From the NCBI GenBank assembly GCA_030524225.1, contig JAUNGV010000016.1, positions 1-50,947 of the forward strand: a stretch of 50,947 nucleotides of DNA, given 5' to 3'. Position numbers and translations under genes: made by a program. The notes beneath the pieces are model-generated. The model worked only from the letters and a program-made list of their open reading frames with translations. It made no database searches and had not been told where the DNA came from. Source of the stretch: Eubacteriales bacterium. GTDB taxonomy: Bacteria > Bacillota > Clostridia > Lachnospirales > Lachnospiraceae. The first letter of the stretch is position 1; every line of letters starts with the position of its first letter. Below, piece after piece: positions 37,183 through 50,863 of the stretch.

Positions 37183-37282
37183 ATCCTATCGGTTGCGGTA
37201 TTTGCCTATATTTGAGCAGGATTTAAGTAGTACAGCAATTTATATTGCGCACAGAGAGCACTCCGGCAGGGAGGCGGCATGA
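37172..37282 (+). pseudogene. Truncated ParE/RelE-family toxin
   Basis: The frame starts at ATG 37172, overlapping the antitoxin, and encodes MENKSYRLRYLPIFEQDLSS and then TAIYIAH, the N-terminal helix region of ParE/RelE toxins. After about residue 28 it runs into the ROK leader (REHSGREAA) and stops at 37282 with 36 residues; family members have about 100. The stop overlaps the ROK start codon (ATGA). All catalytic residues are missing, so it must be inactive. Confidence 0.88.
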
Positions 37283-38241
37283 ACAGCGAAAGAATCTATC
37301 TGGGAATTGACATCGGCGGAACCGCCGTGAAGATGGGCATGATGACGGAAACGGGAGAACTGCTGGAGACGGCCAGCGCTCCGGTGGCCTTTGACGGCTA
37401 TGAGACGCCGATTCTGACGACGGTGAAAGCGGAGGCGAAGCGGTTTGCGGATCGCTTTGCGCAGGAGTACCCGGAGCGGGCGGCGCGCCTTGCGGCGATC
37501 GGCGTCTCGGCGACGGGACAGATTGATATGGATCGGGGAATCGTGACGGGCGCGGCAGGCCATATTCAGAATTGGGTCGGCGCGCGGATCAGGGACGAGC
37601 TGGAGGAGACACTGCATCTTCCTGTACGGGTGGCGAACGATGCGAACTGCGCGGCGCTGGGGGAGTACTGGATCGGAGCGGCGCGCGGTGTGCAGGATGT
37701 GATTGTGCTGACTGTCGGCACGGGTGTGGGCGGCGGCGTGATCACAGGCGGGAAGCTCCTGCGCGGTGCACGGGGCATTGCCGGAGAGCTGGGGCATATC
37801 GTGATCAACGGGGACGGAGAGCCCTGCAGCTGTGGAAACCGGGGGTGTCTGGAGCACTATGCCTCCACGGGGGCGCTGGTCCGGATGGTCAGGGAGGGAA
37901 TCGAATGCGGAGAGATTCCGGCGTTTGCCGGAGAGGTGAACGGACGGACGATTTTCGAGGCGCTGGACAGAGCGGATCATACGGCGCTGGCCGCCTGTGT
38001 GAATCGCTGGATCGGTTATCTGGCGGACGGTATGGTGGGGCTGATTCATATTTTCAATCCCAGCCTGATCCTGATCGGAGGCGGCGTCAGCGCACAGGAG
38101 GAGCTCTTTGTCCGGTCGCTGCGGGAGACTGTCATGGCGCGGATTATGCCGTCCTACCGGGAGGGGCTGCGGATCGAGAGAGCTGCTCTGGGAAACAACG
38201 CGGGACTTGCGGGCGCGGTGTGTCTGTGGGTATCGGAATGA
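37279..38241 (+). CDS. ROK-family sugar kinase (ManNAc/glucose kinase type)
   Basis: This is a cytoplasmic ATP-dependent sugar kinase, 320 residues. The phosphate-binding motif is LGIDIGGTAVKMG (8-20), the catalytic aspartate is in VANDANCAALGE (D121), and the ROK zinc site is complete (H173 in GELGH, then C183, C185 and C190 in CSCGNRGCLEHY). No N-terminal helix-turn-helix is present, so it is an enzyme, not a ROK repressor. GGGAGG precedes the ATG. Given the NanE and GH20 genes downstream, N-acetylmannosamine or another hexosamine is a reasonable substrate, but glucose cannot be excluded. The coding start overlaps the truncated toxin, so its transcription now seems to come from the toxin-antitoxin promoter. 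Bases 37375-37427 are duplicated upstream. Confidence 0.93.
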   Translation: MNSERIYLGIDIGGTAVKMGMMTETGELLETASAPVAFDGYETPILTTVKAEAKRFADRFAQEYPERAARLAAIGVSATGQIDMDRGIVTGAAGHIQNWVGARIRDELEETLHLPVRVANDANCAALGEYWIGAARGVQDVIVLTVGTGVGGGVITGGKLLRGARGIAGELGHIVINGDGEPCSCGNRGCLEHYASTGALVRMVREGIECGEIPAFAGEVNGRTIFEALDRADHTALAACVNRWIGYLADGMVGLIHIFNPSLILIGGGVSAQEELFVRSLRETVMARIMPSYREGLRIERAALGNNAGLAGAVCLWVSE

Positions 38242-38386: not shown

Positions 38387-39214
38387 ATGGATCAGGTCAG
38401 GGAAAATATTCTGCGGGTGTATGAGAGTATGACGCCTGTAGAGCGCAGTATCGCGGATTTTTTCGGGAACAATGAAAAGGCGATGGACTTTTCCTCCCGC
38501 AATATAGCGAAGCTCCTTTATATTTCTGAGGCGACGCTGTCGCGGTTTGCCAAGAAGTGTGGGTATAAGGGATACCGGGAATTCATCTACGATTATGAGA
38601 AGGAGCTGCAGGAGCGTCTGCGGGAGCGCAATATCAGCGTGCTCTCGCGCCGGGTCAGGAATACGTACGCGCGGCTTCTGGAGGAAGCGTTCCGGCAGTT
38701 GGATGAGGAGAGCGTGAAGAAGGTGGCGGCTATGCTGAACCGGCACGACCGCGTCTTTGTCTGCGGAATGGGAAGCTCCGGGTACGCGGCCAGAGAGTTC
38801 TATCTGCGGTTTATGCGGCTGGGGCTGGAGGTGCAGGCTCTGACGGATCCGCAGGTGATTTCCATGACGATGGCGGTCGCGGGGCGGGACTGCGCGGTGA
38901 TCGGCATCACGCTGAGCGGGCGGACGAAGGAGATTCTCGGAGCGCTGCGTGCGGCCAGGGAGAGGGGCGCGGAGACGGTCATCATCACGGCGAACCGGGA
39001 CTATGCGGGAAACGGGTTCTGCGATGCGGCGCTGCTGGCGGCCGCCGATCAGGATCTGGACGGAGGCACGGCGATCTCGCCCCAGTTTCCGGTGCTGGTG
39101 CTGATCGATGTGCTGTACACATATTATATCAAGAACGATGCAAAGGGGAAAATTGCGCGCTGGAACGAGACGCTGCGCGCCCTGCGGGAGCCGCTGGAGA
39201 GTATACCATCATAA
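38387..39214 (+). CDS. RpiR/MurR-family transcriptional regulator
   Basis: This is a sugar-phosphate-responsive regulator, 275 residues. The N-terminal helix-turn-helix region (about 1-80: LTPVERSIADFF-type start, IAKLLYISEATLSRFAKKCGYKGYREF) is followed by a SIS sugar-isomerase domain (about 105-250: VFVCGMGSSGYAAREF, GITLSGRTKEILGAL). ATG 38387 has GGAG 6 bases upstream; longer frames overlapping the ROK gene are unlikely. Relatives include MurR and NanR-like regulators that respond to amino-sugar phosphates. It lies between the ROK kinase and the GH20/NanE operon, so ManNAc-6-P or GlcNAc-6-P is a plausible effector. Confidence 0.93.
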   Translation: MDQVRENILRVYESMTPVERSIADFFGNNEKAMDFSSRNIAKLLYISEATLSRFAKKCGYKGYREFIYDYEKELQERLRERNISVLSRRVRNTYARLLEEAFRQLDEESVKKVAAMLNRHDRVFVCGMGSSGYAAREFYLRFMRLGLEVQALTDPQVISMTMAVAGRDCAVIGITLSGRTKEILGALRAARERGAETVIITANRDYAGNGFCDAALLAAADQDLDGGTAISPQFPVLVLIDVLYTYYIKNDAKGKIARWNETLRALREPLESIPS

Positions 39215-39336
39215 TTGCAAGAGGGCAGAAAGCAGCAGTGCGTCTGGAGCCGGAAGCGCCGCAGCGATTCGGACAGAATCAGGCATTGCATCGCTGAGGG
39301 CATCACTGAAAGTATTTTCAGAATCCCATAAACCTC

Positions 39337-39365
39337 TTGTCAGTAGGACAGCAAACTGCTATAAT
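39337..39365 (+). promoter_or_regulatory. Near-consensus sigma-A promoter in a gene-free stretch
   Basis: TTGTCA (39337-39342), exactly 17 bases, then TATAAT (39360-39365). It is the best-matched plus-strand promoter in the window and lies about 460 bases before the next gene. Between it and the terminator at 39553-39605 there is no credible coding frame. Confidence 0.8.
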
Positions 39366-39371
39366 GCGAAA

Positions 39372-39605
39372 CCGAACAGGCACAGCGCCTGTTCCTTATG
39401 GACTGCAGAGAGTCTGAAAACGCTTGCTGGCATGAACATAAGAGCGTGCTGCGGCAGTGCAGAATAGAGTTGACAGAGCTTACATCGCAGCCGCAGAGAA
39501 ACAAAGCAACTGCGGGACTGCATACAAACCACCCAGAATCAACGACGGCAAAGGGGCCGAATCGGAAACCACTTTCACAAAAGGGTTCCGGTCGGCTCCT
39601 TTTTT
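39372..39605 (+). ncRNA. Candidate small RNA, about 230 nt, with own promoter and terminator
   Basis: Transcription from the promoter at 39337 would begin near 39372 and stop at the T run 39600-39605. The interval has no ribosome-site-led frame. It contains a 5' hairpin (GAACAGGC 39374-39381 with GCCTGTTC 39387-39394), a middle region with short complementary segments such as CCGCAG/CTGCGG (near 39490-39515), and the terminator hairpin. I do not recognise it: it lacks T-box, SRP, RNase P or tmRNA signatures. It lies between the RpiR regulator and the GH20 operon, so it could be an independent trans-acting RNA. With no homology visible, the call rests on promoter plus structure plus terminator. 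Confidence 0.5.
39553..39605 (+). terminator. Strong Rho-independent terminator
   Basis: GGGGCCGA (39553-39560) pairs with TCGGCTCC (39592-39599), continued by an inner stem (39562-39570 with 39584-39591), and is followed directly by six Ts. It closes the candidate small RNA and any read-through from the RpiR gene. Confidence 0.9.
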
Positions 39606-39645
39606 CATGGAATTGCGATAGTACTTTCTAAAAGGGCCGAATTGC

Positions 39646-39674
39646 TTGCGTGTGGAAAAAAGGATGATTATAAT
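39646..39674 (+). promoter_or_regulatory. Sigma-A promoter for the GH20-NanE operon
   Basis: TTGCGT (39646-39651), 17 bases, then TATAAT (39669-39674). The GH20 ATG at 39821 is about 140 bases downstream, a leader long enough for an operator or RNA element. No clear palindrome was seen in it. Confidence 0.75.
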
Positions 39675-39820
39675 CCGGGTTAAATACAAAGCCTGTACAA
39701 GTTTTCCTGAGTAAAGTAGAATCGGAAGGTGACAAGTGAACAAGTTGCTGTGAGAAGAGTTCCAAAACGGGAGAGAACAGCGCAGATTCGACAAGAAAGG
39801 GAGAGGCTAGGAGAGAGCAT

Positions 39821-41677
39821 ATGAAAGTAATTTGCACAGTGCGAAGCGAAAACTACAGAGAACTGCTCGGAGAGATCGAGGCGGTTCTGGAGAGAGGGGC
39901 CGAGGCGGGATCCTACGAGTTGTATGTGAAAGAACGGCAGGAGAGCGGATACCGCTATGAGAAGGAGGACGGCGCGCTGCGGATCAGCTGTGCGGGACGT
40001 GTTTCTTTGTGCCGGGCGCTTCTGGCGGCAGCACAGAGTACGGAACGTACCGGTGGCGAGGATGGCGCGTTTGCGGAGCTGGGATATATGGCCGACTGCT
40101 CGCGCAATGCGGCAGCTAATGTGCCGACGCTCAAGCGTCTCGTCAGAACACTGGCGCTGATGGGCTATTCCTTCCTCGGGCTCTATATTGAGGACACGAT
40201 CCGGGTGGAGGGAGAGCCTTACGTCGGGTATATGCGCGGCGCGTATTCCAGAGAGGAAATCCGCGAGGTGATCCGCTATGCCGACCTGTTCGGCATGGAG
40301 ATCCGCCCGTATGTGCAGACACTGGCGCACCTGAACCAGCTCACACGCTATGCGCACTATCAGAAGTTTGTGGATACCGACGATATCCTGCTGGCGGACG
40401 ATGAGCGGACATACGAATTTCTGGATCACTATCTCGGCGCGGTGGCGGACGCCTTTACGACGAGGACGGTCAATATCGGTATGGACGAGGCTCATATGGT
40501 GGGTCTGGGGAAATACCTCGACGCGCACGGCTATCAGAACCGGGTGGATATTATTCTGAAACATCTGAATCACGTGATGGAGCTGTGCCGTAAATACGGT
40601 CTGCACCCGCAGATGTGGAGCGATATGTTTTTCCGTCTGGCGTTCGGCGGCGAGTACTATGTGGCGGATAAAGAACTGGCGGCGAATGTGCAGATTCCGG
40701 AAGGGCTGGAACTGGTGTACTGGGATTATTATCACACCGATGAGACGCACTATGACCAGATGCTGAGCCGGCATCAGAAGCTGACACAGAGCGTTTCCTT
40801 TGCGGGGGGCGCGTGGAAATGGACGGGGTTTGCCCCGCATAACCGTTACAGCATTACGATTGGCAGAGCGGCGCTTGCAGCATGCCGCAAAAACGGTGTT
40901 CGTTCCGTCGTGATCACAGGATGGGGAGACAACGGTGCGGAGGCCAGCCAGTTCTCGACGCTTCCCGCGCTCTTTGCGGATGCGAACGAAGCGTATGAGA
41001 GAGGACTCGGAGAAGAGGCCTTTCGCGCACTGACGGGGATTTCCTTTGCGGATTATCTGCTTGTGGAGACGAGCAACCCGTATGCGGAGCGGGAGGAAAC
41101 CCACAGCAATGCGGGTAAATATCTGCTCTACAATGATCCGCTGATCGGCACCTTTGATTCTGCGGCGGCTGCGATCGAAAGGGAGCTTCCCGGATATTAT
41201 GAAAAAGCGGCGCGGCGTCTGGAAGAAGCGGCGCTGGCAAATGAAGCGAGTGAGTTTGCCTATGTGCTGCGCACGCAGGCGGCGCTCTGCCGGATCCTGC
41301 GGCGCAAGGCAACGCTGGGACTGCGGCTGCGGGAGGCGTACCGGAGCGGTGATCGTGAGACGCTGCGGGCGATTGCGGAGGCGGAAATTCCGGAATCGGC
41401 GGTGCAGCTCGACGCGTTTTACCGGATTTTCCGCGATCAGTGGTACCGGGAGAATAAGACCTTCGGATTCGAGGTGCAGGGGATCCGGATCGGTGGCCTG
41501 CGGATGCGGCTGATTGAGACGGGAACTCTGCTGCGGGATTATCTGGAGGGAACCAGAGAGAAAATCGAGGAGCTGGAGGAGGCGTACCTGCCGTTTGCGT
41601 ATTTCGAGGACGACGCACCGGAATCCCTGGACTATAATCTCTGGCACGATATTGCCAGCCCGGCTGTGATGGGCTGA
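39821..41677 (+). CDS. Glycoside hydrolase family 20 beta-N-acetylhexosaminidase
   Basis: This enzyme releases terminal beta-GlcNAc or GalNAc by substrate-assisted catalysis. The barrel starts near residue 85 (LGYMADCSRNAAANVPTLKR), and the catalytic Asp-Glu pair is in VNIGMDEAH (D222-E223). SFLGLYIEDT, the aromatic subsite VYWDYYH and VITGWGDNG are further barrel features. It has 618 residues with a C-terminal helical region and no signal peptide, so it acts on imported saccharides. GGAGAGAG precedes the ATG. It is the first gene of a roughly 10-kb unit with a transporter, DUF4127 protein, NanE, esterase and amidohydrolase. Its relatives with an extended C-terminal helical part include enzymes acting on host glycans. 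Confidence 0.9.
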   Translation: MKVICTVRSENYRELLGEIEAVLERGAEAGSYELYVKERQESGYRYEKEDGALRISCAGRVSLCRALLAAAQSTERTGGEDGAFAELGYMADCSRNAAANVPTLKRLVRTLALMGYSFLGLYIEDTIRVEGEPYVGYMRGAYSREEIREVIRYADLFGMEIRPYVQTLAHLNQLTRYAHYQKFVDTDDILLADDERTYEFLDHYLGAVADAFTTRTVNIGMDEAHMVGLGKYLDAHGYQNRVDIILKHLNHVMELCRKYGLHPQMWSDMFFRLAFGGEYYVADKELAANVQIPEGLELVYWDYYHTDETHYDQMLSRHQKLTQSVSFAGGAWKWTGFAPHNRYSITIGRAALAACRKNGVRSVVITGWGDNGAEASQFSTLPALFADANEAYERGLGEEAFRALTGISFADYLLVETSNPYAEREETHSNAGKYLLYNDPLIGTFDSAAAAIERELPGYYEKAARRLEEAALANEASEFAYVLRTQAALCRILRRKATLGLRLREAYRSGDRETLRAIAEAEIPESAVQLDAFYRIFRDQWYRENKTFGFEVQGIRIGGLRMRLIETGTLLRDYLEGTREKIEELEEAYLPFAYFEDDAPESLDYNLWHDIASPAVMG

Positions 41678-41904
41678 CGGAGAACCGGGTGCAGGCACAG
41701 CGCGCGGCAGATCAGACCTCCGTTTCCGGCTTTGGCGGAAATAGACAGAAGGGATAGAGGGACAATGCGGGACATTGCTTCGGCAAAGGCCGGAGTCTGG
41801 CCCGTTTGTCGGAAGCGTGTTCCGGATCAGAGTCCGGAGAGGCACTTCCCCCGCCCGCACAATTCCGTGCGGACGGATATACATTTTTCAAAGGAGGATG
41901 CAAT

Positions 41905-43266
41905 ATGAAAAAGATGAAACTGTTAAGCGCAGTGCTTGCCACTGTCATGGCGTCCAGCATGGCGCTGGTCGGATGCGGAAGTTCTTCTTCCGCTACGGCT
42001 GACGCGACCGCGGATGCCGCGGCGACGGAGCAGGCGGATACGGAAGCGGCTGCCGGCGAGGAGACGGCGGAAGCTGAGGCGGAGGCGACGGAAACCGCAG
42101 ACAGCGGGGACAAGACGCAGATTGAGTTCTGGACGATCTCCCTGCAGCCGACCTTTACCGACTTCTTCAACGGTCTGATTGCAAAGTATGAGGAGGAGAA
42201 TCCGAACATCACGGTCAAATGGGTGGATCTTCCGTATGATTCCATTCAGGAGAAGCTGGTCACCTCGGTAGCGGGCGGTTCCTCTCCGGACGTTGTGAAC
42301 CTGAATACCCAGTTCGCGCTGACGCTGGCGGGCAAGGGCGCTCTGGTGGATCTGAACAAGGAGGCGACGGAAGAGCAGCGTTCCATTTATATCCCGAGCC
42401 TGTATGAGTCCACCGAGATCGGCGATGCGGCATATGCGTTCCCGTGGTATGCGTCCCCGAACATCATGTTCTACAACAAGGAACTGTTCGAGCAGGCAGG
42501 AATTACTGAAATCCCGACGACGTACGAAGAGGCCAATGCGCTGGCAAAACAGATGAAGGATGCGACGGGCGCTTATCTGTACAACCCGACCGAGTTCTTC
42601 AACCTGCTGTTTGAAGAGGATATTCCGGTTCTGAACGAGGACAACACGGCGGCGGCTTTCAATACCGATCAGACGGCGGATCTCTTAAACAGCTACAAGG
42701 AGCTGACGGATCAGGATATTCTGCCGAAGGCAAACTGGGGCGTATGGGACGAGGAGCTCAAACTCTTTGAGACCGAGAAACTGGCGATCGTCAGCTCTTC
42801 CGGATCTTCCCTGTCCAGAATCAAGGACGAGGCGCCGGATGTCTATGAGAAGATCGCGGTAGCGGCTCCGCTGACCGGTTCCGTAGGACTTTCCAGAAAC
42901 GCACTGATGAACGTGGTGGTTCCGGAGGCAAGCAAGAATCACGAAGAGGCGATCAAGTTCGCGGCATGGATCACGAACGATGAGAACCAGCTCGCATTCT
43001 GCAAGGAAGTCGCAATCTTCCCGTCCACGACGGCGGCAGCGGCAGATCCGTACTTCACGGAGGATACCGAGACGCTGGAGGGACAGGCGAGAGCAATGTC
43101 CGCATCCCTTTCCGACAGCTCCAAGGATTACTCTCTCGGCGTAGAGGGACAGAGTGAGATCCAGGAGGACGTCAACAAGGCGTACCAGGAGACCATCATC
43201 AACGGCGGCGACGCAAAACAGGCGCTCGACGCAGCTGCAGAGGAAGTCAATTCTGATCTGAACTAG
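41905..43266 (+). CDS. Extracellular sugar-binding lipoprotein, family 1
   Basis: This is the receptor of the third importer, 453 residues. The signal peptide is MKKMKLLSAVLATVMA with lipobox LVGC at about 21-24. A long Ala/Glu/Thr tether (about 25-70) precedes the family 1 solute-binding fold (IEFWTISLQP, VKWVDLPYDSIQEKL, AGGSSPDVVNLN). ATG 41905 follows AAAGGAGG (41890-41897) and is preferred to earlier in-frame starts. The 227-base gap after GH20 holds a small CCGCAC-AATTCC-GTGCGG hairpin near the start. It belongs to a different subfamily from the two LplB-linked receptors. Context suggests an amino-sugar oligosaccharide ligand. Confidence 0.95.
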   Translation: MKKMKLLSAVLATVMASSMALVGCGSSSSATADATADAAATEQADTEAAAGEETAEAEAEATETADSGDKTQIEFWTISLQPTFTDFFNGLIAKYEEENPNITVKWVDLPYDSIQEKLVTSVAGGSSPDVVNLNTQFALTLAGKGALVDLNKEATEEQRSIYIPSLYESTEIGDAAYAFPWYASPNIMFYNKELFEQAGITEIPTTYEEANALAKQMKDATGAYLYNPTEFFNLLFEEDIPVLNEDNTAAAFNTDQTADLLNSYKELTDQDILPKANWGVWDEELKLFETEKLAIVSSSGSSLSRIKDEAPDVYEKIAVAAPLTGSVGLSRNALMNVVVPEASKNHEEAIKFAAWITNDENQLAFCKEVAIFPSTTAAAADPYFTEDTETLEGQARAMSASLSDSSKDYSLGVEGQSEIQEDVNKAYQETIINGGDAKQALDAAAEEVNSDLN

Positions 43267-43298
43267 GCACCGGAGGCAGCAAGAGGTAAGGAGCGCAG

Positions 43299-43330
43299 GA
43301 TCGTCCGGCGTCCCACGACGCCGGGCGGTT
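43299..43330 (+). terminator. Intra-operon attenuator-like hairpin
   Basis: CGTCCGGCGTC (43302-43312) pairs with GACGCCGGGCG (43317-43327) around CCAC, extended outward by weak pairs, and followed by GTTCTGT. It lies between the receptor and permease genes, where partial termination or 3' protection commonly keeps receptor levels above permease levels. Confidence 0.65.
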
Positions 43331-43358
43331 CTGTATCTGTTTAAAGGAGGTTCGTTCC

Positions 43359-44243
43359 ATGAAAATCAAGACAAGACAAACCTTGAAGGCCTATCTGTTT
43401 ATGGCTCCGGCCCTGATTTTACTCATTCTGTTCGTGTTTGTTCCTATATTCGGCAGTTTGCCTTTGATGTTTTTTGATTATTCCGTACTCGGTAAGACCA
43501 AATTTGTCGGATTTGACAATTTCATTGAACTTTTTGGAGATCGAGAATTCCGTATTGCACTGCTGAATTCGATCCTGTTTGTCGTGGTTGTTCCCGTCAT
43601 TCAGATTCTGTCGATTCTGCTGGCATTACTTGTCAATAGAAAGATGCACGGCATGACGCTGTTCCGCACGCTCTTTTATATCCCGGTGGTCACCTCGATG
43701 GTGGCGGTGTCCATTATCTGGGGATTTCTGTTCGATGCGAACGGTGTCATCAATACAGCGCTCATGGATCTGGGGCTGATCAAAATGCCGCTGGGATTCC
43801 TCAACGACGGCAAAACAGCGATGCTCTGCGTGATGTTTATCACAGTCTGGCAGGGACTTGGCTACTATATGATGCTTTACCTCGCAGGTCTGCAGTCCGT
43901 GCCGCAGGAGCTGGAGGAAGCGGCGTGGGTGGACGGGGCGAACCGTCTGCAGTCCCTTATTAAAATTAAAATTCCAATGCTCAAGCCATACATCTGGTTC
44001 TGCTCGCTGAACTCCGTGATCTCGGCGATCAGCGTGTTCGACGTGGTCTATGTCCTGACGCAGGGCGGGCCCAACAACGCGACGGTCGTGATCAACTACT
44101 ATTCCTATGTGAAGGCCTTTAAGGATTTTGAATTCGGATACGCGGCGGCAGTCGGCGCGGTACAGGCGGTAATCACCACCATTATGAGTATCATCGTATT
44201 CGTATATGGCAAGCAGGGAGGAGGCATGACGTACAGTGAATAA
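43359..44243 (+). CDS. Sugar ABC transporter permease, MalF/UgpA type
   Basis: This is the first membrane subunit of the third importer, 294 residues. It opens with LKAYLFMAPALILLILFVFVP, has the EAA loop EEAAWVDGANRLQSLIKIKIP, and QGGPNNATVVINYYSYVKAF typical of UgpA-like permeases. An AAAGGAGG site precedes the ATG at 43359. The last 8 bases overlap the next permease gene, a sign of coupled translation. It is distinct from the LplB-type proteins and closer in type to the partial permease at the window start. Confidence 0.95.
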   Translation: MKIKTRQTLKAYLFMAPALILLILFVFVPIFGSLPLMFFDYSVLGKTKFVGFDNFIELFGDREFRIALLNSILFVVVVPVIQILSILLALLVNRKMHGMTLFRTLFYIPVVTSMVAVSIIWGFLFDANGVINTALMDLGLIKMPLGFLNDGKTAMLCVMFITVWQGLGYYMMLYLAGLQSVPQELEEAAWVDGANRLQSLIKIKIPMLKPYIWFCSLNSVISAISVFDVVYVLTQGGPNNATVVINYYSYVKAFKDFEFGYAAAVGAVQAVITTIMSIIVFVYGKQGGGMTYSE

Positions 44244-45084
44244 CAGAAACAGAATGCGGGCGGCCAGAAAGAGAAGAGCCCTCGTCAATAAGATCCTTGT
44301 ATACTGCGCGCTGATCCTGATCGCCATCGTCTGCGCGGGGCCGTTCCTGTGGATGCTCGCCACCTCTTTTAAATCGGGACAGAACATTTATGATCTCACA
44401 CTGATTCCGACGAATCCGACGCTCTCCAACTATACGGGCGTGATTGAGTTCATGAATATTCCGAAATATATTCTGAACACGGTGATCATCACCTTTTCCT
44501 CGATCCTGCTCGATGTGGTGTGCTCAGCGCTCTGCGCATACGCGCTGGCCTGCATGGATTTCAAGGGAAAGAATTTCATCACTGCGGCGCTGCTGATGGC
44601 GATGATCGTTCCGGCAGCTGCGGGCATGATTATCAATTATCTGATCATCATCAACGTACATCTGCTCAATACGTATGCCGGCGCGGTGCTTCCGGGAGCG
44701 GTCAAGGTATTCTCCATCATCCTGCTGCGGCAGGCGTACATGGCGATTCCGAAGGATCTGATCGAGGCGGCCAAAATCGACGGTGCTTCCGATCTGCGGA
44801 TCTGGGGCAAAATTATGATGCCGAGTATCATGCCAACGATTTCTACAGTGATTATTTTCGACTTTATCTCCAAGTGGAACGAGTTCCTGTGGCCGATCAT
44901 TGTACTGCAGGATCCTGCCAAGTATCCGCTGGCGACAGCGCTGCAGTATCTGAATGGTTCGTTCAACTATAAGTTTGGCTATATCGCGGCGGGGACGATT
45001 ATCTCGATTGTTCCGGTTATTCTGGTCTTTGTGATCTGTCAGAAGAATTACGTCGAGGCGGTGAGTGGAGCGGTCAAAGGATAA
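44236..45084 (+). CDS. Sugar ABC transporter permease, MalG/UgpE type
   Basis: This is the second membrane subunit, 282 residues. After a basic N terminus (RMRAARKRRALVNK) come six hydrophobic segments beginning ILVYCALILIAIVCAGPFLWM. The EAA loop is EAAKIDGASDLRIWGKIMMP, and the end FVEAVSGAVKG-like motif reads YVEAVSGAVKG. The start is GTG 44236, inside the preceding gene, with GGGAGGAGG a few bases upstream. No ATPase gene follows; DUF4127 starts after 35 bases. Confidence 0.95.
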   Translation: MNNRNRMRAARKRRALVNKILVYCALILIAIVCAGPFLWMLATSFKSGQNIYDLTLIPTNPTLSNYTGVIEFMNIPKYILNTVIITFSSILLDVVCSALCAYALACMDFKGKNFITAALLMAMIVPAAAGMIINYLIIINVHLLNTYAGAVLPGAVKVFSIILLRQAYMAIPKDLIEAAKIDGASDLRIWGKIMMPSIMPTISTVIIFDFISKWNEFLWPIIVLQDPAKYPLATALQYLNGSFNYKFGYIAAGTIISIVPVILVFVICQKNYVEAVSGAVKG

Positions 45085-45119
45085 GGAAAGCAGCGGCAGA
45101 AATGGGAATGAGGGTTAGG

Positions 45120-46631
45120 ATGAGACGTAAAATAGTATTGCTTCCGCTCGATGAGCGGCCCTGCAACGCGGAATTCCCCGCGGCGCTGTTCGGGCACGGG
45201 GAACTGGAAATTGTGAGGCCGCAGAGCCTCGGTGATAAGAAAAAGAGAGCGGATGAGAAGACGATTGAGGCGTATCTGCGGAGGGAATGCGCGGATGCGG
45301 ACGGACTGGTGCTGTCCGTGGATATGCTTCTGTACGGCGGTCTCGTGCCGTCACGGATACACCATGACACGCTGGAGCAGCTGCAGAGAGCGGCCGATGT
45401 GATCCGGGATCTGAAGAAGGAAAATCCGGCGCTGCTGGTCTTCGCCTTTCAGGTGATCATGCGCTGCCCGGACTATTCGAGCGATGACGAGGAGCCGGAG
45501 TACTATGAGATCTGTGGGGAGGCAATTCACAGAACCGGGGAAATTGTCCATAAGGGCAGGCTTGGCCTGAACGGAGACGGAGGAATGAACGGCATTCTGC
45601 CGGAAATTGATCCGGATTATCTGAACGATTATGTGGGGCGCCGTGAGCTGAACCGGGAGATGAACGCGTATATGCTGCGTTTCCTGGAAGAGGGAAGCAT
45701 TGACTTTATGGTGATTCCGCAGGACGACGCGGCGCGGTACGGTTATGCCGCGATGGATCAGGAGGCGGTGCGGAGCCGTATCATAGAGAAGAACCTGAGC
45801 GACCGGATTCTGATTTATCCGGGGGCGGACGAGGTGGGACTGACACTGATCGGGCGCATGATTAACAAATTATCCGGGAAAAAACCAAAGGTCTATATCA
45901 AATATCTCTGCGAACAGGCCAAGACGATTATTCCGCTGTACGAGGGGAATACGCTCTCGGGGACGATCAAATATCATCTGCTGGCGGCGGGGTGCTGCAC
46001 GACGGAGAGCTATGAACAGGCGGATATGATTCTCGTCGTCACCGCTCCGGCGGGACAGATGAAGGAGGCGGTGGTGCAGCCCTGCCCGCTGCCGGAGTAC
46101 CGGACAGAGCGCAATTATCCGGAGATGCTGGATTTTATCACGGACAGAATGGCGGAGGGGAAAATCGTCACGATCGCGGACAACGCCTATGCCAACGGCG
46201 GAGATCTGGAGCTGATCCGTCTGCTCGATCACGCGGGTCTGCTGCTGGCGGTGGATGGATATGCCGGATGGAATACGTCGGCGAATACGCTCGGCACGGC
46301 GATTGCGGAGGGGATCGATGCGTATTATTCCGGGCGCAGCAGCTCCCACACTGCGTTTCTTCTGCAGCGCTATCTGGAGGATGCCGGGTACTGCTCTGTG
46401 GTGCGTCAGCAGGTGACGCAGGAGCTGGAGGCCGAGGGAGAGGGCCTTGGATATTTTGATGTGAGGGAGGAACGCGGCGAGGCCGCGCACCGCGTCGCCC
46501 GGGGACTCGCCGCATTTGCCGGGGACTATCTCTCCTCGATCGCGGATGATATTATCATTGAGGATGTGCATATGCCGTGGCGGCGTATGTTCGAGGTGGG
46601 CTTCCGGGCGCGGCTGCGGGACGCGCAGTAG
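45120..46631 (+). CDS. DUF4127 family protein
   Basis: This is a soluble protein of 503 residues belonging to DUF4127, whose reaction is unknown to me. Conserved features are KIVLLPLDERPCN at the very N terminus, DGLVLSVDMLLYGGLVPSR (about 60-80), VIPQDDAARYG, YPGADEVGLTLIGRM and a late IADNAYANGGD. The many conserved Asp, Glu, Arg and Asn residues look like an active site rather than a structural protein. There is no signal peptide or membrane segment. ATG 45120 has GAGGG 5 bases upstream; ATG 45102 is possible. Placed between the permeases and nanE, it is probably a catalytic step on the imported amino sugar, which makes it the key unknown of this operon. Confidence 0.85.
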   Translation: MRRKIVLLPLDERPCNAEFPAALFGHGELEIVRPQSLGDKKKRADEKTIEAYLRRECADADGLVLSVDMLLYGGLVPSRIHHDTLEQLQRAADVIRDLKKENPALLVFAFQVIMRCPDYSSDDEEPEYYEICGEAIHRTGEIVHKGRLGLNGDGGMNGILPEIDPDYLNDYVGRRELNREMNAYMLRFLEEGSIDFMVIPQDDAARYGYAAMDQEAVRSRIIEKNLSDRILIYPGADEVGLTLIGRMINKLSGKKPKVYIKYLCEQAKTIIPLYEGNTLSGTIKYHLLAAGCCTTESYEQADMILVVTAPAGQMKEAVVQPCPLPEYRTERNYPEMLDFITDRMAEGKIVTIADNAYANGGDLELIRLLDHAGLLLAVDGYAGWNTSANTLGTAIAEGIDAYYSGRSSSHTAFLLQRYLEDAGYCSVVRQQVTQELEAEGEGLGYFDVREERGEAAHRVARGLAAFAGDYLSSIADDIIIEDVHMPWRRMFEVGFRARLRDAQ

Positions 46632-46708
46632 CAGAGGCCGAACGGGACAGCAGCAGCGTTGCCTGCGGCGGAAACGGTGATCAGAAAGCAGAAAGGGCAG
46701 ATGGGAAA

Positions 46709-47410
46709 ATGACAAAGGAAGCATTGTTTGATCAGATACGGGGCGGCCTGATCGTATCGTGTCAGGCGCTGGCGAGCGAACCGCTTTACGGTTCGGAGTA
46801 TATGGCGAAAATGGCGGTGGCCGCCGCAGAGGGCGGCGCGGCCGGTATCCGTGCGAATACGCCGGAGGATATCAAGGCAATCCGTGCGGCGGTGGATTTG
46901 CCGGTGATCGGGCTGTACAAGGCAGAGTATCCGGATTCGGAGGTCTATATCACGCCAACGATGAAGGAGGTGGACGCGCTGATGGAGGTGCGTCCTGATA
47001 TGATCGCAATGGACGCGACGGACAGGGTGCGTCCGGCGGGCATGACGCTGGAGGAATTCTTCCCGCTGGTCAGGGCAAAGTATCCGGATATGCTCTTCAT
47101 GGCGGACTGCTCCTCGTTTGAGGATGCGGCGCGGGCGCAGGAGCTGGGCTTCGACGTGGCAGGCACGACGATGCGGGGCTATACGGCTGCGACGAAGGGC
47201 ATCGCGATCCCGGATTATGATATGCTGCATGAGATGACGATGAAGCTCTCCATTCCGGTGATTGCGGAGGGCGGCGTCTGGGAGAGAGAGCAGCTGCAGC
47301 GGGTGTATCAGGAAGGAATTCTCTCGGCCGTCATCGGAACGGCGATCACGAGACCGCGGGATATTACGCGCCGTTTCGTGGAGGCGATCCGCGGGGAGGA
47401 AAAAGCATGA
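46709..47410 (+). CDS. nanE: N-acetylmannosamine-6-phosphate 2-epimerase
   Basis: This enzyme interconverts ManNAc-6-P and GlcNAc-6-P in the cytoplasm. The 233-residue TIM barrel has LIVSCQALASEPLYG at the start, GIRANTPEDI, the active-site lysine region PVIGLYKAEY, DATDRVRP, FMADCSSFEDA, VAGTTMRGYT and IPVIAEGGVW, all typical of NanE. ATG 46709 is preceded by GGG-rich AGATGGGAAA, a modest site; a longer frame to 46577 overlaps DUF4127 and is unlikely. The stop overlaps the esterase start by four bases (ATGA). No nanA lyase or nanH sialidase is seen in the window, so ManNAc-6-P must come from elsewhere, plausibly from the ROK kinase. Confidence 0.96.
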   Translation: MTKEALFDQIRGGLIVSCQALASEPLYGSEYMAKMAVAAAEGGAAGIRANTPEDIKAIRAAVDLPVIGLYKAEYPDSEVYITPTMKEVDALMEVRPDMIAMDATDRVRPAGMTLEEFFPLVRAKYPDMLFMADCSSFEDAARAQELGFDVAGTTMRGYTAATKGIAIPDYDMLHEMTMKLSIPVIAEGGVWEREQLQRVYQEGILSAVIGTAITRPRDITRRFVEAIRGEEKA

Positions 47411-48495
47411 GTGGGGGGAAGAGATGGCTTCCTCTGCGCAGTACGGTGAAGGTGATGGGCCGGACGCTCTGGAATAAAGAGCGGACGGCCCGTTATCTGT
47501 GCTATTCAGCCTCCTGCGTGGAGTTTTATTTTACCGGGCGTTCTCTGGCCTGTGAGATGGCGTCGGATTTTGATCCGGTGCGGGATGTGGGATACGAGTG
47601 CTTTATGGGCCTGTTCGTGGAGGGCAGGCTGGTGCGCCGTTTCACGCTGCGGGGCGGCAGACACCGCTATGCTCTGCTGGAAAATGGGAACTGGGTCCGT
47701 GCGCGTGTGCGGCTGATGAAGCTGACCGAGGAGCAGTACGCTTCTGCAGGTCTTTGCGCTCTTGTGACGGAAGAGGAGGCGGTAATTTCCCCGGTTCCGG
47801 ATGCGCAGAGGCGGATTGTCTTTATCGGAGACTCTATTACCTGTGGCTACGGCGTGCTGGGTGCGGATGGCGAACCGTTTACGACGCAGACGCAGGACGC
47901 TTCGCAGGCGTATGCGGCGCTCTGTGCGGAGCGGCTGGGCGCGGATTATGAACTCGTCTCCTACAGTGGGATCGGTGTGATTTCGCGCTATGTGGAGCCG
48001 GATGCCGGGGAGCCGCTGACCGATGTGCTGATGCCGCGGATTTATCCGTATACGGATGCGGGGCTGTGTGAGAGGAACGGATGGGAGATGGTGCGCTGGG
48101 ATTTTACCGGATTCCGGCCACAGATCATCGTGGTGAATCTCGGGACGAATGACGCCAGCTATACGAGGGGGATGCCGGAGCGGGAGGCCCGGTTTGCGGA
48201 GGCGTACCGCGCCTTCCTGCGAAGTGTGGCGCAGCGCTCCCCCGGGGCGGCGGTTGTCGTCAGCTACGGAGTGATGGAACAGAGTTTGCTGTCTTGTGAG
48301 CGGGAGATCTGCCGCGAGCTGGACGAGGAGGCACGAGAGGCACAGGGAGCGCTGGGAACGCGCTTCTTTTTCCACGAGGAGGAGCCGATGCGACCGGAGG
48401 ACGGAGCGGGCTGCGTCGGCCATCCTTCCCTGAGGACGCAACGAAAACTGGCGGAGGATCTGGCGCATTTTTTACAGAAAACCACTGGAGTGTGA
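47407..48495 (+). CDS. SGNH/GDSL-family carbohydrate esterase (CE2-like)
   Basis: This is a probable O-acetyl or other O-acyl esterase, 362 residues. An N-terminal beta domain (about 1-130) precedes an SGNH hydrolase domain. The nucleophile S143 is in VFIGDSITCGYG, N248 is in LGTND, and the Asp/His pair is near D332 and H339 in the GHPS motif. The two-domain order matches the CE2 family of acetyl esterases. There is no signal peptide, so it acts on an imported sugar. Translation is coupled to nanE by the ATGA overlap, which ties it to amino-sugar use. Removing O-acetyl groups from sialic acid-type or GlcNAc-type sugars would fit, by inference. Confidence 0.88.
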   Translation: MSGGKRWLPLRSTVKVMGRTLWNKERTARYLCYSASCVEFYFTGRSLACEMASDFDPVRDVGYECFMGLFVEGRLVRRFTLRGGRHRYALLENGNWVRARVRLMKLTEEQYASAGLCALVTEEEAVISPVPDAQRRIVFIGDSITCGYGVLGADGEPFTTQTQDASQAYAALCAERLGADYELVSYSGIGVISRYVEPDAGEPLTDVLMPRIYPYTDAGLCERNGWEMVRWDFTGFRPQIIVVNLGTNDASYTRGMPEREARFAEAYRAFLRSVAQRSPGAAVVVSYGVMEQSLLSCEREICRELDEEAREAQGALGTRFFFHEEEPMRPEDGAGCVGHPSLRTQRKLAEDLAHFLQKTTGV

Positions 48496-48617
48496 CGGGC
48501 GGACTGTGATATACTGGCAGAGATTTCGAGTGAAACCGGGATGTATGCGGAGAGAGCCGGATGAGGACAGGACCGATTCTCTGGCAGTCCCGGATTCTGA
48601 TAGCAGGAGGGTGCAGG

Positions 48618-50255
48618 ATGAGTGCGGATATCTGCCTGACGAGCCGGTTCGTCTTTACCGGAAGAGGAGAGGGAACAGAGCCTCTCAGCGTTCTGATTCA
48701 GGGGGAGAGAATTCTGGCGGTCGTTCCCCGGGGAGAGGAAGGGCCGTATCTGGATGCGCACACGCAGATCATGGATCTGGGAGACCGGATGGTGATGCCG
48801 GGCTTCGTCGATGCGCATACGCATTTCTTTCTCGGGGCGGCGGCCTCGTGTGAACAGGTCTGCTCTGATCCGCTCTACGCGACGTCGGAGCAGGAATGCG
48901 TGCAGATGATGCTGCGCTATGCCGGAAAGCACCCTGAGGCGAAGCGCCTGCGCGGACGCGGTTGGCAGGCGGCGCGCTGGACAGGTGGGCAGCTGCCGAC
49001 GAAGGATAGTCTCGACGCGTTTTTTCCGGATATTCCTGTCTATATGCAGTCGGATGATGTGCACTGCTACTGGCTCAATTCCAGAGCGCTGGAAGAGTGC
49101 GGGATCACGAAAGAGGACACGGTGGAGACCGGTTATATCGGCAAGGATGACAGCGGAGAGCTGAACGGGATTCTCATGGAGATAGAGGCCAGTGTACCGG
49201 CGGATCGGATTTACCATTCTTTTACGAGAGCAGAAGAAGAGAAGATGTACCGGGATCTGTTGGCAGAGGCGGCACGCTGCGGGGTCACTTCTCTCAGTGA
49301 GATGACGTCGTCGGAGTACGATGAGTGCCACAGGGCGCGTTACCGGATCGTGAAAGAGATGGAGCAAAAGGGGGAGCTGACGGCGCGGCTTCATATTTTC
49401 ACAAAGCTGTTTGACTGTGAGAATTACGGCGCGGCACTGGCGCTGCAGAGGGAGCTGGATTCCCCGTACCTGCGAATCAGCGGTTTGAAGGGGTTTGTGG
49501 ACGGGGTAGTGGAGACGTACACGGGACTGCTGCTGGAACCCTACAGCGACCGCCCGGATACCTGCGGGATCGGCGTTCCGATGTGTACGCAGGAGGAGCT
49601 GAACGCGTGGATTACCGAGGCAAACCGGGAGGGACTTCCGGTCCGGCTGCACTGTATTGCGGATGGTTCGGTGCGCATGGCGCTCAACGCCTTTGAGGCC
49701 TCAGTGAAGGCAAACGGCAAAAAGGGACTGCCCAACGCGATCGAACATATTGAAATCCTGCATCCGGACGATATTGCCCGTTTCAGGGAGCTGGAGGTGA
49801 TTCCGTCCATGCAGCCCATGCATCTGCTGCTGGATGAGGATGGAGAAATCGAGCGGGTCGGGGCGCACAGAGTGCAGTACGAGTGGGTCATGCGGACTCT
49901 TTTGGAGGAGACGGGACGGCTCGCGATCGGAACGGATTATCCGGTGGTTTCGCTCTCGCCGTTTGATACGATTTATGCGGCGGTGACGCGCAGACATTTT
50001 GACGGGAGAGAGGCGAGCCGCAATCCGCAGGAGGCGCTTACAATGGCGCAGACACTGCGCGCCTATACATATGGTGCGGCGCAGGTGTACAGCCGTCAGG
50101 ATGAGATCGGTTCGCTCGAGGCAGGAAAGTATGCGGATCTTGTGGTGATTGACAGGGATCTGTTCTCTGTGCCGTATGAACAGATCCGGGACTGCCGCGT
50201 TGCAATGACGATGGTGGGCGGCAGAGTGGTGTATGAGAGCGGCATAGTAAAGTGA
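48618..50255 (+). CDS. YtcJ-type metal-dependent amidohydrolase
   Basis: This enzyme of the amidohydrolase superfamily (Amidohydro_3/YtcJ group) has 545 residues. A small beta-sandwich is formed by both ends (LTSRFVFTGRGEG; YADLVVIDRDLFSVP). The metal-binding barrel has HxH in MPGFVDAHTHFFLG, LKGFVDGVVETYTG, a histidine in VRLHCIADGS, another in NAIEHIEIL, and an aspartate in AIGTDYPV. AGGAGG lies 8 bases before ATG 48618. The 122-base gap after the esterase has no promoter that I can see, so it is probably the last gene of the operon. It could deacylate or deamidate a product of the pathway. Unlike NagA it lacks that family's typical motifs, so it is not a simple GlcNAc-6-P deacetylase. Confidence 0.88.
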   Translation: MSADICLTSRFVFTGRGEGTEPLSVLIQGERILAVVPRGEEGPYLDAHTQIMDLGDRMVMPGFVDAHTHFFLGAAASCEQVCSDPLYATSEQECVQMMLRYAGKHPEAKRLRGRGWQAARWTGGQLPTKDSLDAFFPDIPVYMQSDDVHCYWLNSRALEECGITKEDTVETGYIGKDDSGELNGILMEIEASVPADRIYHSFTRAEEEKMYRDLLAEAARCGVTSLSEMTSSEYDECHRARYRIVKEMEQKGELTARLHIFTKLFDCENYGAALALQRELDSPYLRISGLKGFVDGVVETYTGLLLEPYSDRPDTCGIGVPMCTQEELNAWITEANREGLPVRLHCIADGSVRMALNAFEASVKANGKKGLPNAIEHIEILHPDDIARFRELEVIPSMQPMHLLLDEDGEIERVGAHRVQYEWVMRTLLEETGRLAIGTDYPVVSLSPFDTIYAAVTRRHFDGREASRNPQEALTMAQTLRAYTYGAAQVYSRQDEIGSLEAGKYADLVVIDRDLFSVPYEQIRDCRVAMTMVGGRVVYESGIVK

Positions 50256-50286: not shown

Positions 50287-50775
50287 TCAGAAACCTGCGG
50301 GGCGCACCGTGACGCGGCGGCACAGCAGCGTTTCCCTCGTGGAGCAGATCTTGTCCGCGAGGCAGACGAGCAGCGCTTCTCTGGAATGCGGCCAGTGCAG
50401 GAACGTGAGGGGCCACATATGACTGCGGATGATGTCTCGCTCCTTTGCATTGAGAGGATAGAGACGTTCCGCGTTTGCCAGCGCAATGGCGGGATGGCGG
50501 AAGCCGTGCCAGCGGCCGGCCCTCTGCGTGCAGTCATGCCAGTCGTAGAGATAGAAATCGTGAAGGAACGCGCCGCGCACCATGCTCTCCTCATCCGCAC
50601 CGAGAGCAAAACGGCGGTTTAAAAGAAAACTCATCCGCGCCACGCAGACGCAGTGATCATAGGTGCTGATCTGACCGTGCTGAAGGAAGCTCTTCATTTG
50701 AAGAGCTTCTTTTGTGTCTGCCCATCCCCGGAGAATGGTTTCAAACTGAGTGCGCTCGTCGAGTGTCCAATCCAT
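50287..50775 (-). CDS. HD-domain protein (predicted phosphohydrolase)
   Basis: This small cytoplasmic protein has 162 residues with HD-superfamily metal ligands: a histidine in STYDHCVCVARMS, the His-Asp pair in GAFLHDFYLYDWH, and later H and D residues (HGFRHPAIALANAE; LADKICS). Such proteins hydrolyse phosphate esters or nucleotides, and the substrate is unknown. ATG 50775 has AGGAG 5 bases upstream. The minus-strand promoter at 50835-50863 would start transcription near 50828, so a longer frame beginning at 50844 cannot be used. It converges on the amidohydrolase gene with only 31 bases between stops and is not part of that operon. Confidence 0.9.
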   Translation of the reverse strand: MDWTLDERTQFETILRGWADTKEALQMKSFLQHGQISTYDHCVCVARMSFLLNRRFALGADEESMVRGAFLHDFYLYDWHDCTQRAGRWHGFRHPAIALANAERLYPLNAKERDIIRSHMWPLTFLHWPHSREALLVCLADKICSTRETLLCRRVTVRPAGF

Positions 50776-50793
50776 AGCGGCTCCTTTCGGAAA

Positions 50794-50817
50794 GCGGGCG
50801 GCCCTCAGGGCGTCCGC
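50794..50817. promoter_or_regulatory. Hairpin in the HD gene leader, terminator-like on the plus strand
   Basis: GCGGGCG (50794-50800) pairs with CGTCCGC (50811-50817), with an inner CCC-TCA-GGG and one bulge. On the plus strand it is followed by CTTTTCTG, so it could stop read-through from the amidohydrolase operon. On the minus strand it lies in the short HD leader. Confidence 0.45.
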
Positions 50818-50834
50818 CTTTTCTGCTGCCATTA

Positions 50835-50863
50835 CTTGTATCACTTGAGAGGGAATTTGTCAA
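50835..50863 (-). promoter_or_regulatory. Near-consensus sigma-A promoter for the HD-domain gene
   Basis: On the minus strand a perfect TTGACA (50863-50858) is separated by 17 bases from TACAAG (50840-50835). The start codon at 50775 is about 50 bases downstream of the predicted transcription start. Confidence 0.8.

Follow-up and report, generated by a model that had tools for sequence, protein, structure and literature searches.

An amino-sugar operon that combines NanE with a DUF4127 protein

We analysed contig JAUNGV010000016.1 of a Lachnospiraceae bacterium, referred to here as the window, which is the whole contig of 50,947 nt, and concentrated on an operon that encodes the N-acetylmannosamine 6-phosphate (ManNAc-6-P) 2-epimerase NanE together with a member of PF13552 (DUF4127), a family without assigned function. 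A sequence-only reading of this DNA had listed an RpiR regulator, a GH20 enzyme, the receptor and permeases of an ATP-binding cassette (ABC) transporter, DUF4127, NanE, an SGNH esterase and an amidohydrolase in one direction, with a ROK kinase just upstream. An open reading frame (ORF) listing, together with Pfam and NCBIfam searches, confirmed each of these genes in its place and on the forward strand (Table 1). The coupling of nanE to the esterase gene is likewise borne out by a 4-nt overlap. The transporter set, described as complete, does contain a receptor and two permeases, but no ATP-binding gene was found among the operon genes.

Table 1. Features of the operon and its upstream flank
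Feature	Position	Strand	Evidence
ROK-family sugar kinase	37279..38241	+	PF00480, 223.6 bits; upstream of RpiR
RpiR/MurR-type regulator (HTH_6 + SIS)	38387..39214	+	PF01418 and PF01380 over cut-off
Sigma-70-like promoter before GH20C	39337..39365	+	TTGTCA-17-TATAAT, 11/12 consensus matches; TG precedes second hexamer
GH20C exo-beta-N-acetylhexosaminidase	39821..41677	+	PF18088, 185 bits
ABC sugar-binding lipoprotein (receptor)	41902..43266	+	PF01547, 140 bits
18-pair hairpin between receptor and first permease	43295..43334	+	
ABC permease A	43359..44243	+	PF00528
ABC permease B	44236..45084	+	PF00528
DUF4127 protein, uncharacterised	45108..46631	+	PF13552, 512.6 bits (cut-off 27)
NanE, ManNAc-6-P 2-epimerase	46706..47410	+	PF04131, 202.6 bits (cut-off 27); NCBIfam PRK01130, 287.9 bits (cut-off 189)
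CE2-type SGNH acetylesterase	47407..48495	+	PF17996 (CE2_N) and PF13472 over cut-off
Amidohydro_3 (YtcJ-like) metal hydrolase	48618 (or 48561)..50255	+	PF07969, 332 bits

Several of these assignments can be refined. The GH20C protein carries a GH20 domain and a Glyco_H_20C_C domain, has an Asp-Glu (DE) motif at residues 222-223, and aligns with the solved GH20C structure 5a6b (E 4e-133, residues 33-614 of 618); the GH20C N-acetyl-beta-D-glucosaminidases, such as those of Protein Data Bank entries 5a69 and 2epk, are its closest known counterparts and represent just one step of the operon. Solved CE2 structures are among the relatives of the esterase, in which the GDSI, GTND and HPS motifs are present. 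The amidohydrolase, whose start at 48618 we picked from a ribosome-binding-site-like stretch upstream, carries an HTH, K, H, H and D motif set. No NCBIfam equivalog model reaches its cut-off for the ROK protein, a putative amino-sugar kinase; the model that comes closest, that of the ROK glucokinase subfamily, scores 220 of 260 bits. By eye, there is no signal peptide in GH20C, DUF4127, the esterase or the amidohydrolase.

NanE in a genome without a scoring NanA

In the window NanE, residues Q20, R49, K72, D134, E188 and R216 are, by motif and spacing, the counterparts of the active-site residues of the Staphylococcus aureus enzyme (SaNanE), given as Gln11, Arg40, Lys63, Asp124, Glu180 and Arg208 in the excerpt of its description available to us (PMC8482478). 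The residues are spaced by 29, 23, 62, 54 and 28 positions in the window protein as against 29, 23, 61, 56 and 28 in SaNanE, the Asp being placed by eye. ManNAc-6-P 2-epimerase is the predicted activity of this protein.

The absence of NanA, the N-acetylneuraminic acid (Neu5Ac) lyase, had been noted for the window, and it holds for the 81%-complete genome, in which no protein reaches the curated NanA score (best match 116.3 bits, cut-off 382). A Pfam scan of 30 window proteins turned up neither a sialidase family nor a sialic-acid transporter family, no search of the rest of the genome being made for either, and a single-sequence DHDPS/NAL (NanA-type) model gave no match in the 80 DUF4127 loci described below. 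N-acetylglucosamine 6-phosphate (GlcNAc-6-P) would be usable by this organism, because NagA (302 bits) adjoins NagB on another contig of its genome. Salvage of N-acetylmuramic acid by the MurQ etherase was considered and dropped: MurQ was not found, the best match in the genome being the RpiR gene itself, at 26 bits.

Three known systems invite comparison. With the nan sialic-acid operon (NanA-NanK-NanE) the window shares a ROK-type kinase and NanE, which lead to GlcNAc-6-P, but its genome has no NanA at the curated score, and it has DUF4127, GH20C and the CE2 esterase instead. The cell-wall amino-sugar rescue clusters of Clostridium and Bacillus combine ABC or phosphotransferase system (PTS) uptake with an RpiR-type regulator, a kinase and an exo-hexosaminidase, whereas the window genome has no detected MurQ and does have NanE and DUF4127; two-domain GNAT genes near DUF4127 in some relatives resemble these rescue clusters. 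The third is the lmo2795-nanE operon of Listeria monocytogenes (RpiR, ROK, PTS, HAD, oxidoreductase and NanE), which, according to the part of its description available to us, is required for growth on N-acetylmannosamine (ManNAc), NanE itself being necessary for this, with no growth on Neu5Ac (PMC10667646). It resembles the window operon in bringing RpiR, ROK and NanE together, and differs from it in having a PTS, a HAD hydrolase and an oxidoreductase where the window has ABC genes and no HAD; DUF4127, GH20C and the esterase are not named in that part of the description. The Listeria result weakens the premise of the sequence-only reading that NanE normally receives its substrate through NanA and NanK.

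DUF4127 and NanE recur together

We used a DUF4127 alignment to scan a collection of 84,980 species, each represented by a single genome, and took the best-scoring 80 of at least 536 confirmed relatives. It is important to note that this choice favours close relatives, and that many loci end at contig ends, which lowers the counts and can add apparent losses. ORFs were called and clustered, the clusters were named by Pfam, and six frames were searched with cluster hidden Markov models (HMMs). At four loci (L032, L043, L061 and L100) ORF calling gave the antisense frame, so the DUF4127 frame was set by tblastn coordinates; these loci are absent from the DUF4127 tree, whose 77 rows are 76 loci and the window.

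Counted anywhere in the locus, the 80 loci contain a permease in 52, a sugar-binding receptor in 48, ROK in 46, NanE in 40, RpiR in 37, an oxidoreductase of the flavin adenine dinucleotide (FAD) family PF12831 in 27 and GH20C in 18. Rarer companions are Gfo/Idh/MocA (12), NagB (9), NAGPA (9), CE2 (8), GH31 (7), NagA (6), GNAT (6), GH84 (4) and Amidohydro_3 (2), with GHL10 genes in up to 16 loci (10 and 6 by two models, possibly overlapping). Within the same-strand run of DUF4127 we found NanE in 36 of the 80 loci, ROK in 32, the FAD oxidoreductase in 27, RpiR in 24, GH20C in 15, CE2 in 8 and Amidohydro_3 in none. Among the named neighbours of DUF4127 on its own strand, NanE ranks first, filling 30 neighbour slots, with 29 more slots unnamed. 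On the DUF4127 tree, a quick tree without bootstraps on which change counts have no shuffle baseline, the presence of NanE in the run requires no fewer than 15 changes, against 13 for the FAD oxidoreductase. DUF4127 and NanE have come together or separated many times, in varied gene orders, from Lachnospiraceae to relatives of Paenibacillus and Acholeplasma.

The same association is seen at the level of whole genomes. Here, a NanE was counted as clear at 95 bits or more and weaker matches were excluded, both in a set of 398 genomes from the phylum and in one of 146 genomes from the order, each of which includes the window's own genome. Among the 398, DUF4127 is over cut-off in 62, a clear NanE is present in 44 and both are present in 27, so that NanE is found in 27 of 62 genomes with DUF4127 against 17 of 336 without (Fisher p 6e-14, uncorrected for relatedness); 11 of the 52 clear NanE genes in this set lie within 10 kb of DUF4127. 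In the order-level set, NanE is present in all six genomes with a short (~510 aa) DUF4127 compared with 17 of the 140 others, and in one of the six with a long (~620 aa) DUF4127. The 26 clear NanE genes of the 146 genomes divide, among the matches listed, into 12 within 10 kb of a NanA-like gene (at least 178 bits), 5 within 7 kb of DUF4127 and 9 near neither, with no gene near both; by our own arithmetic, the chance of this zero overlap is about 0.03. The NanA-like matches near NanE range from 178 to 443 bits, two of them exceeding the curated NanA cut-off, and a weaker match near the NanE genes of genome G035 is possible.

Conserved linkage of DUF4127 and NanE, the lack of which had been named beforehand as a refutation of the earlier reading, is therefore present, as the 36 same-strand runs and the genome counts show. 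The other refutation named beforehand, a nanA/nanH set next to the window in the same regulon, did not materialise as far as the search went, with no NanA at the curated score in the genome and sialidase looked for among 30 window proteins. The earlier view of the amidohydrolase as a core step is not supported: the only two Amidohydro_3 genes in the 80 loci lie on the other strand from DUF4127, and the gene is a lineage-specific addition outside the conserved unit. The esterase is of CE2 type, and lies within the run at a minority of loci.

Some loci deserve mention in their own right. The long DUF4127 type was seen in six genomes of the order (L136-L141), with a signal-peptide-like N-terminus by eye in L007. 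These are six of the 12 genomes over cut-off in the order-level set, and in the six stretches read there was no NanE, ROK or ABC-sugar match. At L047:4740-9327, three tandem DUF4127 genes lie between GHL10-type genes, with a GH84 gene nearby. The FAD oxidoreductase accompanies DUF4127 in, for example, L058, L062, L084, L086 and L151, of which L062, L084 and L086 have ABC genes and DUF4127 without NanE; one representative of it had no solved relative.

Variant operons with PTS genes instead of ABC and ROK genes

On the Carnobacterium plasmid pCAR50 the gene order is NanE, a Cof-type HAD, DUF4127, a lactose/cellobiose-family enzyme IIC (EIIC) and RpiR, while on an Enterococcus faecalis plasmid it is a lactose/cellobiose enzyme IIA (EIIA), NanE, HAD, DUF4127 and EIIC, with RpiR divergent. 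Both operons have HAD and PTS genes, as does that of Listeria, with the PTS genes standing in for ABC genes and ROK. Neither stretch gave a match to our models for ROK, ABC or hexosaminidase proteins, and the annotation of the Carnobacterium stretch lists no glycosidase. A lactose/cellobiose-type PTS usually carries disaccharides, and in a PTS operon without a recognised glycosidase, DUF4127 is the obvious candidate to make the NanE substrate. Closer to the window, genome G085 of the same family (L146) and Lachnoclostridium phytofermentans (L036) have loci with SGNH, GH20C, receptor, permeases, FAD oxidoreductase, DUF4127, NanE, RpiR and GHL10 genes in this order. In two genomes of the same genus, NanE and ROK adjoin a beta-lactamase-family protein.

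The DUF4127 protein and its model

The window protein is full-length, covering positions 1-488 of the 489 in the PF13552 profile. Our literature search found no paper naming DUF4127, and a 58-row DUF4127 profile matched no solved chain up to E 10. Thirteen columns are invariant in the 58 sequences, and the invariant arginines are R17, R83 and R119. The AlphaFold model has a predicted local distance difference test score (pLDDT) of 95.8 and a predicted template-modelling score of 0.94; residues 1-325 alone give a pLDDT of 93.3. In this model the invariant or nearly invariant residues D15, R17, D72, R119, D206, D207, D241, D358, W388 and N389 come just after predicted strands (7-12, 66-70, 110-114, 200-205, 234-238, 353-357 and 384-386), a placement that, in the model, resembles that of alpha/beta enzymes with the active site at strand ends. 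Homologues with N-termini that look like signal peptides by eye exist.

A possible envelope theme in the neighbourhoods

ManNAc occurs in the linkage units of wall teichoic acid. The repeat of the Paenibacillus alvei secondary cell-wall polymer is given, in the excerpt available to us, as beta-N-acetylglucosamine (GlcNAc) plus pyruvylated beta-ManNAc (PMC6030368). The GHL10, GH20C, NAGPA, NagB, NagA and GNAT genes near DUF4127 fit an envelope theme, which they do not specifically indicate. DigH is a GHL10 protein, and Cwp19 is reportedly a lytic transglycosylase, to go by the title of a paper. In the excerpts available, DigH cleaves peptide-free peptidoglycan (PMC12288456) and Cwp19 is described as a GHL10 protein (PMC5765458). 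NAGPA phosphodiester glycosidase genes, one of them at L098:7444-8916, would suit a sugar-1-phosphate wall linkage.

The window's own genome encodes a TagA/WecG-family transferase (204 bits), with a PS_pyruv_trans gene (79 bits) about 6 kb away. The term N-acetylmannosaminidase, in that spelling, was not found in the literature searched, a search on NamZ/Rossmann found nothing, and matches listed for glucosaminide N-acetyltransferase were just heparan-glucosaminide and unrelated work.

Transcription signals and the remainder of the window

The 606-nt gap between RpiR and GH20C contains the promoter-like site of Table 1, and the gaps from GH20C onward are 224, 92, -8, 23, 74, -4 and 122 nt, which suggests, at the level of sequence, that GH20C to the amidohydrolase form one transcription unit and that RpiR is separate. 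The promoter-like site is a consensus match only, and 13 such sites were found in all where shuffled sequences gave 7.3. Apart from it, repeats in the gap (39215-39820) amount to a single direct pair of 13 nt and a single inverted pair of 10 nt, with no clear operator. The hairpin between the receptor and the first permease is possibly a stabiliser of the messenger RNA or an attenuator; Rfam gave no match in the window.

To the right, the end of the operon seems to lie within the window, because the next ORF (50287-50844) is on the opposite strand. This ORF, of 185 aa at the contig end, has HD-like letters by eye and no Pfam match. To the left, positions 1-36315 form a separate region that looks devoted to plant polysaccharides, with GH30, GH127, two GH2, a GH42 beta-galactosidase and an apiosidase-like protein, two pairs of histidine kinase and AraC-type response regulator, and DUF3502 receptors with permeases.

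A candidate route to NanE, and the alternatives

Our conclusion from these results is that the arrangement at this locus reflects more than chance, and that the sequence-only reading is partly supported, being right in its main line and wrong on the amidohydrolase. That main line, an amino-sugar pathway leading to NanE with no part for NanA, in which DUF4127 performs an uncharacterised step, is supported by the missing scoring NanA and by the conserved linkage. The more specific proposal, to which we give a probability of roughly 0.4, is that the operon serves to break down, independently of NanA, short oligosaccharides that contain ManNAc and most likely derive from the envelope polymers of bacteria, and that DUF4127 is the enzyme which frees ManNAc or ManNAc-6-P. 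Candidate substrates would be the beta-ManNAc-GlcNAc units found in the linkage units of wall teichoic acid or in secondary cell-wall polymers. The ABC receptor and permeases would import the oligosaccharide, the CE2 esterase would strip O-acetyl groups from it, and the cytoplasmic GH20C would take off terminal beta-GlcNAc or N-acetyl-beta-galactosamine. DUF4127 would then cut the ManNAc glycosidic bond, or free ManNAc-6-P in operons whose PTS phosphorylates the sugar during uptake. From ManNAc the ROK kinase would form ManNAc-6-P, which NanE would convert to GlcNAc-6-P, leaving NagA and NagB, encoded elsewhere, to complete the pathway, while RpiR would sense a phospho-amino-sugar.

Other results weigh against this proposal. 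As many as 35 of the 62 DUF4127 genomes are without a clear NanE, and 40 of the 80 loci are without NanE, so DUF4127 cannot be solely a ManNAc-releasing enzyme. Only one of 14 control genomes, that of Deinobacterium chartae, has NanE over cut-off as well as DUF4127, out of two with DUF4127, and in the short-type genome G145 NanE is on a different contig from DUF4127, next to a NanA-like gene. Some neighbourhoods have another character: DUF4127 lies among housekeeping genes in L023, L056 and L058, by a GH18 chitinase with CBM5/12 in L074, with GH38, ManA and a glucose-type EIIBC on Priestia plasmids, and with ABC genes and the FAD oxidoreductase, but no NanE within 10 kb, on a Deinococcus plasmid. 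The chitinase and GH38 neighbours show that the substrates of the DUF4127 family may be wider. The FAD oxidoreductase has no place in the proposed scheme and no full-length match in the window's own genome. No glycosidase was recognised in the E. faecalis stretch, with Pfam run on four ORFs besides DUF4127 and NanE and most others covered by cluster HMMs only. The TagA and pyruvyltransferase families are common, occurring in 7 and 8 of the 14 control genomes, and the presence of these genes in the window's genome is therefore weak evidence.

The fold searches belong on the same side of the balance, as they recognised no clear structural relative and no glycosidase fold. With Foldseek, the DUF4127 model reached E of 0.001 or below only for 16 xylose/glucose isomerase chains, at template-modelling (TM) scores of 0.20-0.26, and the rows beyond these are mixed, including GH18 chitinases at E 0.005-0.012. 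A VIA fold search, with the full model and with residues 1-325, matched cobalamin-enzyme domains, sugar-binding proteins, SGNH hydrolases and pyridoxal kinases, with scores close to those that the tool labels as common. Profile-profile comparison of DUF4127 with 24 neighbour clusters, one of which (c29) is just the antisense frame of DUF4127, gave no probability above 1%. A GH84-like Asp-Asp pair was considered at first and then given up, no TIM-barrel glycosidase being recognised among the best 50 rows for residues 1-325. A glycosidase is thus the most economical reading of the DUF4127 neighbourhoods, and not of the fold.

Such results would fit a DUF4127 that works in the same ManNAc or amino-sugar pathway as an isomerase, a lyase or a remover of substituents (such as a pyruvate ketal, a lactyl ether or some other acidic substituent), GH20C, GH84 or GHL10 being left to cut the glycosidic bonds. 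The leading isomerase rows, the alpha/beta model, and the sugar-binding proteins and SGNH hydrolases among the weak matches of residues 1-325 all point this way, as do the invariant arginines, which would fit an acidic substrate, and the other hexosaminidases found near DUF4127, GH20C and GH84. We nevertheless consider this somewhat unlikely, given that the two PTS operons combine a disaccharide-type EIIC with no other recognised glycosidase, and that the fold matches are not clear of common arrangements and extend to GH18 chitinases. A looser role is also conceivable, in which the operon scavenges hexosamines in general from chitin, mucin or N-glycan fragments, the flux passing through GH20C, ROK and NagA/NagB, while NanE just rescues stray ManNAc and the target of DUF4127 is some unrelated linkage, for instance a mannoside. 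The GH38 and ManA genes of the Priestia operon, the GH18 gene of L074, GH31 in 7 of the 80 loci and the many DUF4127 genomes without a clear NanE would all fit, but the rank of NanE as the commonest named same-strand neighbour, the repeated changes on the tree and its retention in two PTS operons speak for a closer tie, and the probability of so general a role seems to us rather low.

We regard it as very improbable that this is after all a sialic-acid pathway in which DUF4127 is a non-homologous Neu5Ac lyase replacing NanA. Such a replacement would account for NanA-like genes and DUF4127 never both lying near one NanE among the 26 genes and the matches listed, and the invariant arginines could hold a carboxylate. 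However, no sialidase or sialic-acid transporter family was found among the proteins scanned, lactose/cellobiose-type PTS genes and GH20C are not parts of sialic-acid metabolism, and the signal-peptide-like N-termini of some DUF4127 homologues would be needless for a lyase feeding the cytoplasm.

Returning to the proposed release of ManNAc or ManNAc-6-P by DUF4127, a bolder form of it is that DUF4127 is a new glycosidase family whose alpha/beta scaffold differs from the folds common among glycosidases, and the first known to release ManNAc or ManNAc-6-P from bacterial envelope glycans; in this form we think it unlikely to hold. As NanE without NanA was already known from Listeria, in the part of that work available to us (PMC10667646), the new part of our analysis is DUF4127 as a recurrent, uncharacterised partner of NanE. 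The neighbourhoods give DUF4127 a testable place, directly ahead of NanE in the position otherwise filled by NanA, and they caution that not every NanE should be annotated as sialic-acid metabolism. If DUF4127 does free ManNAc from wall polymers, it would provide a first step for salvage of this sugar from bacterial envelopes, and a DUF4127 glycosidase would define a widespread route by which NanE is fed from wall polymers and not from sialic acid.

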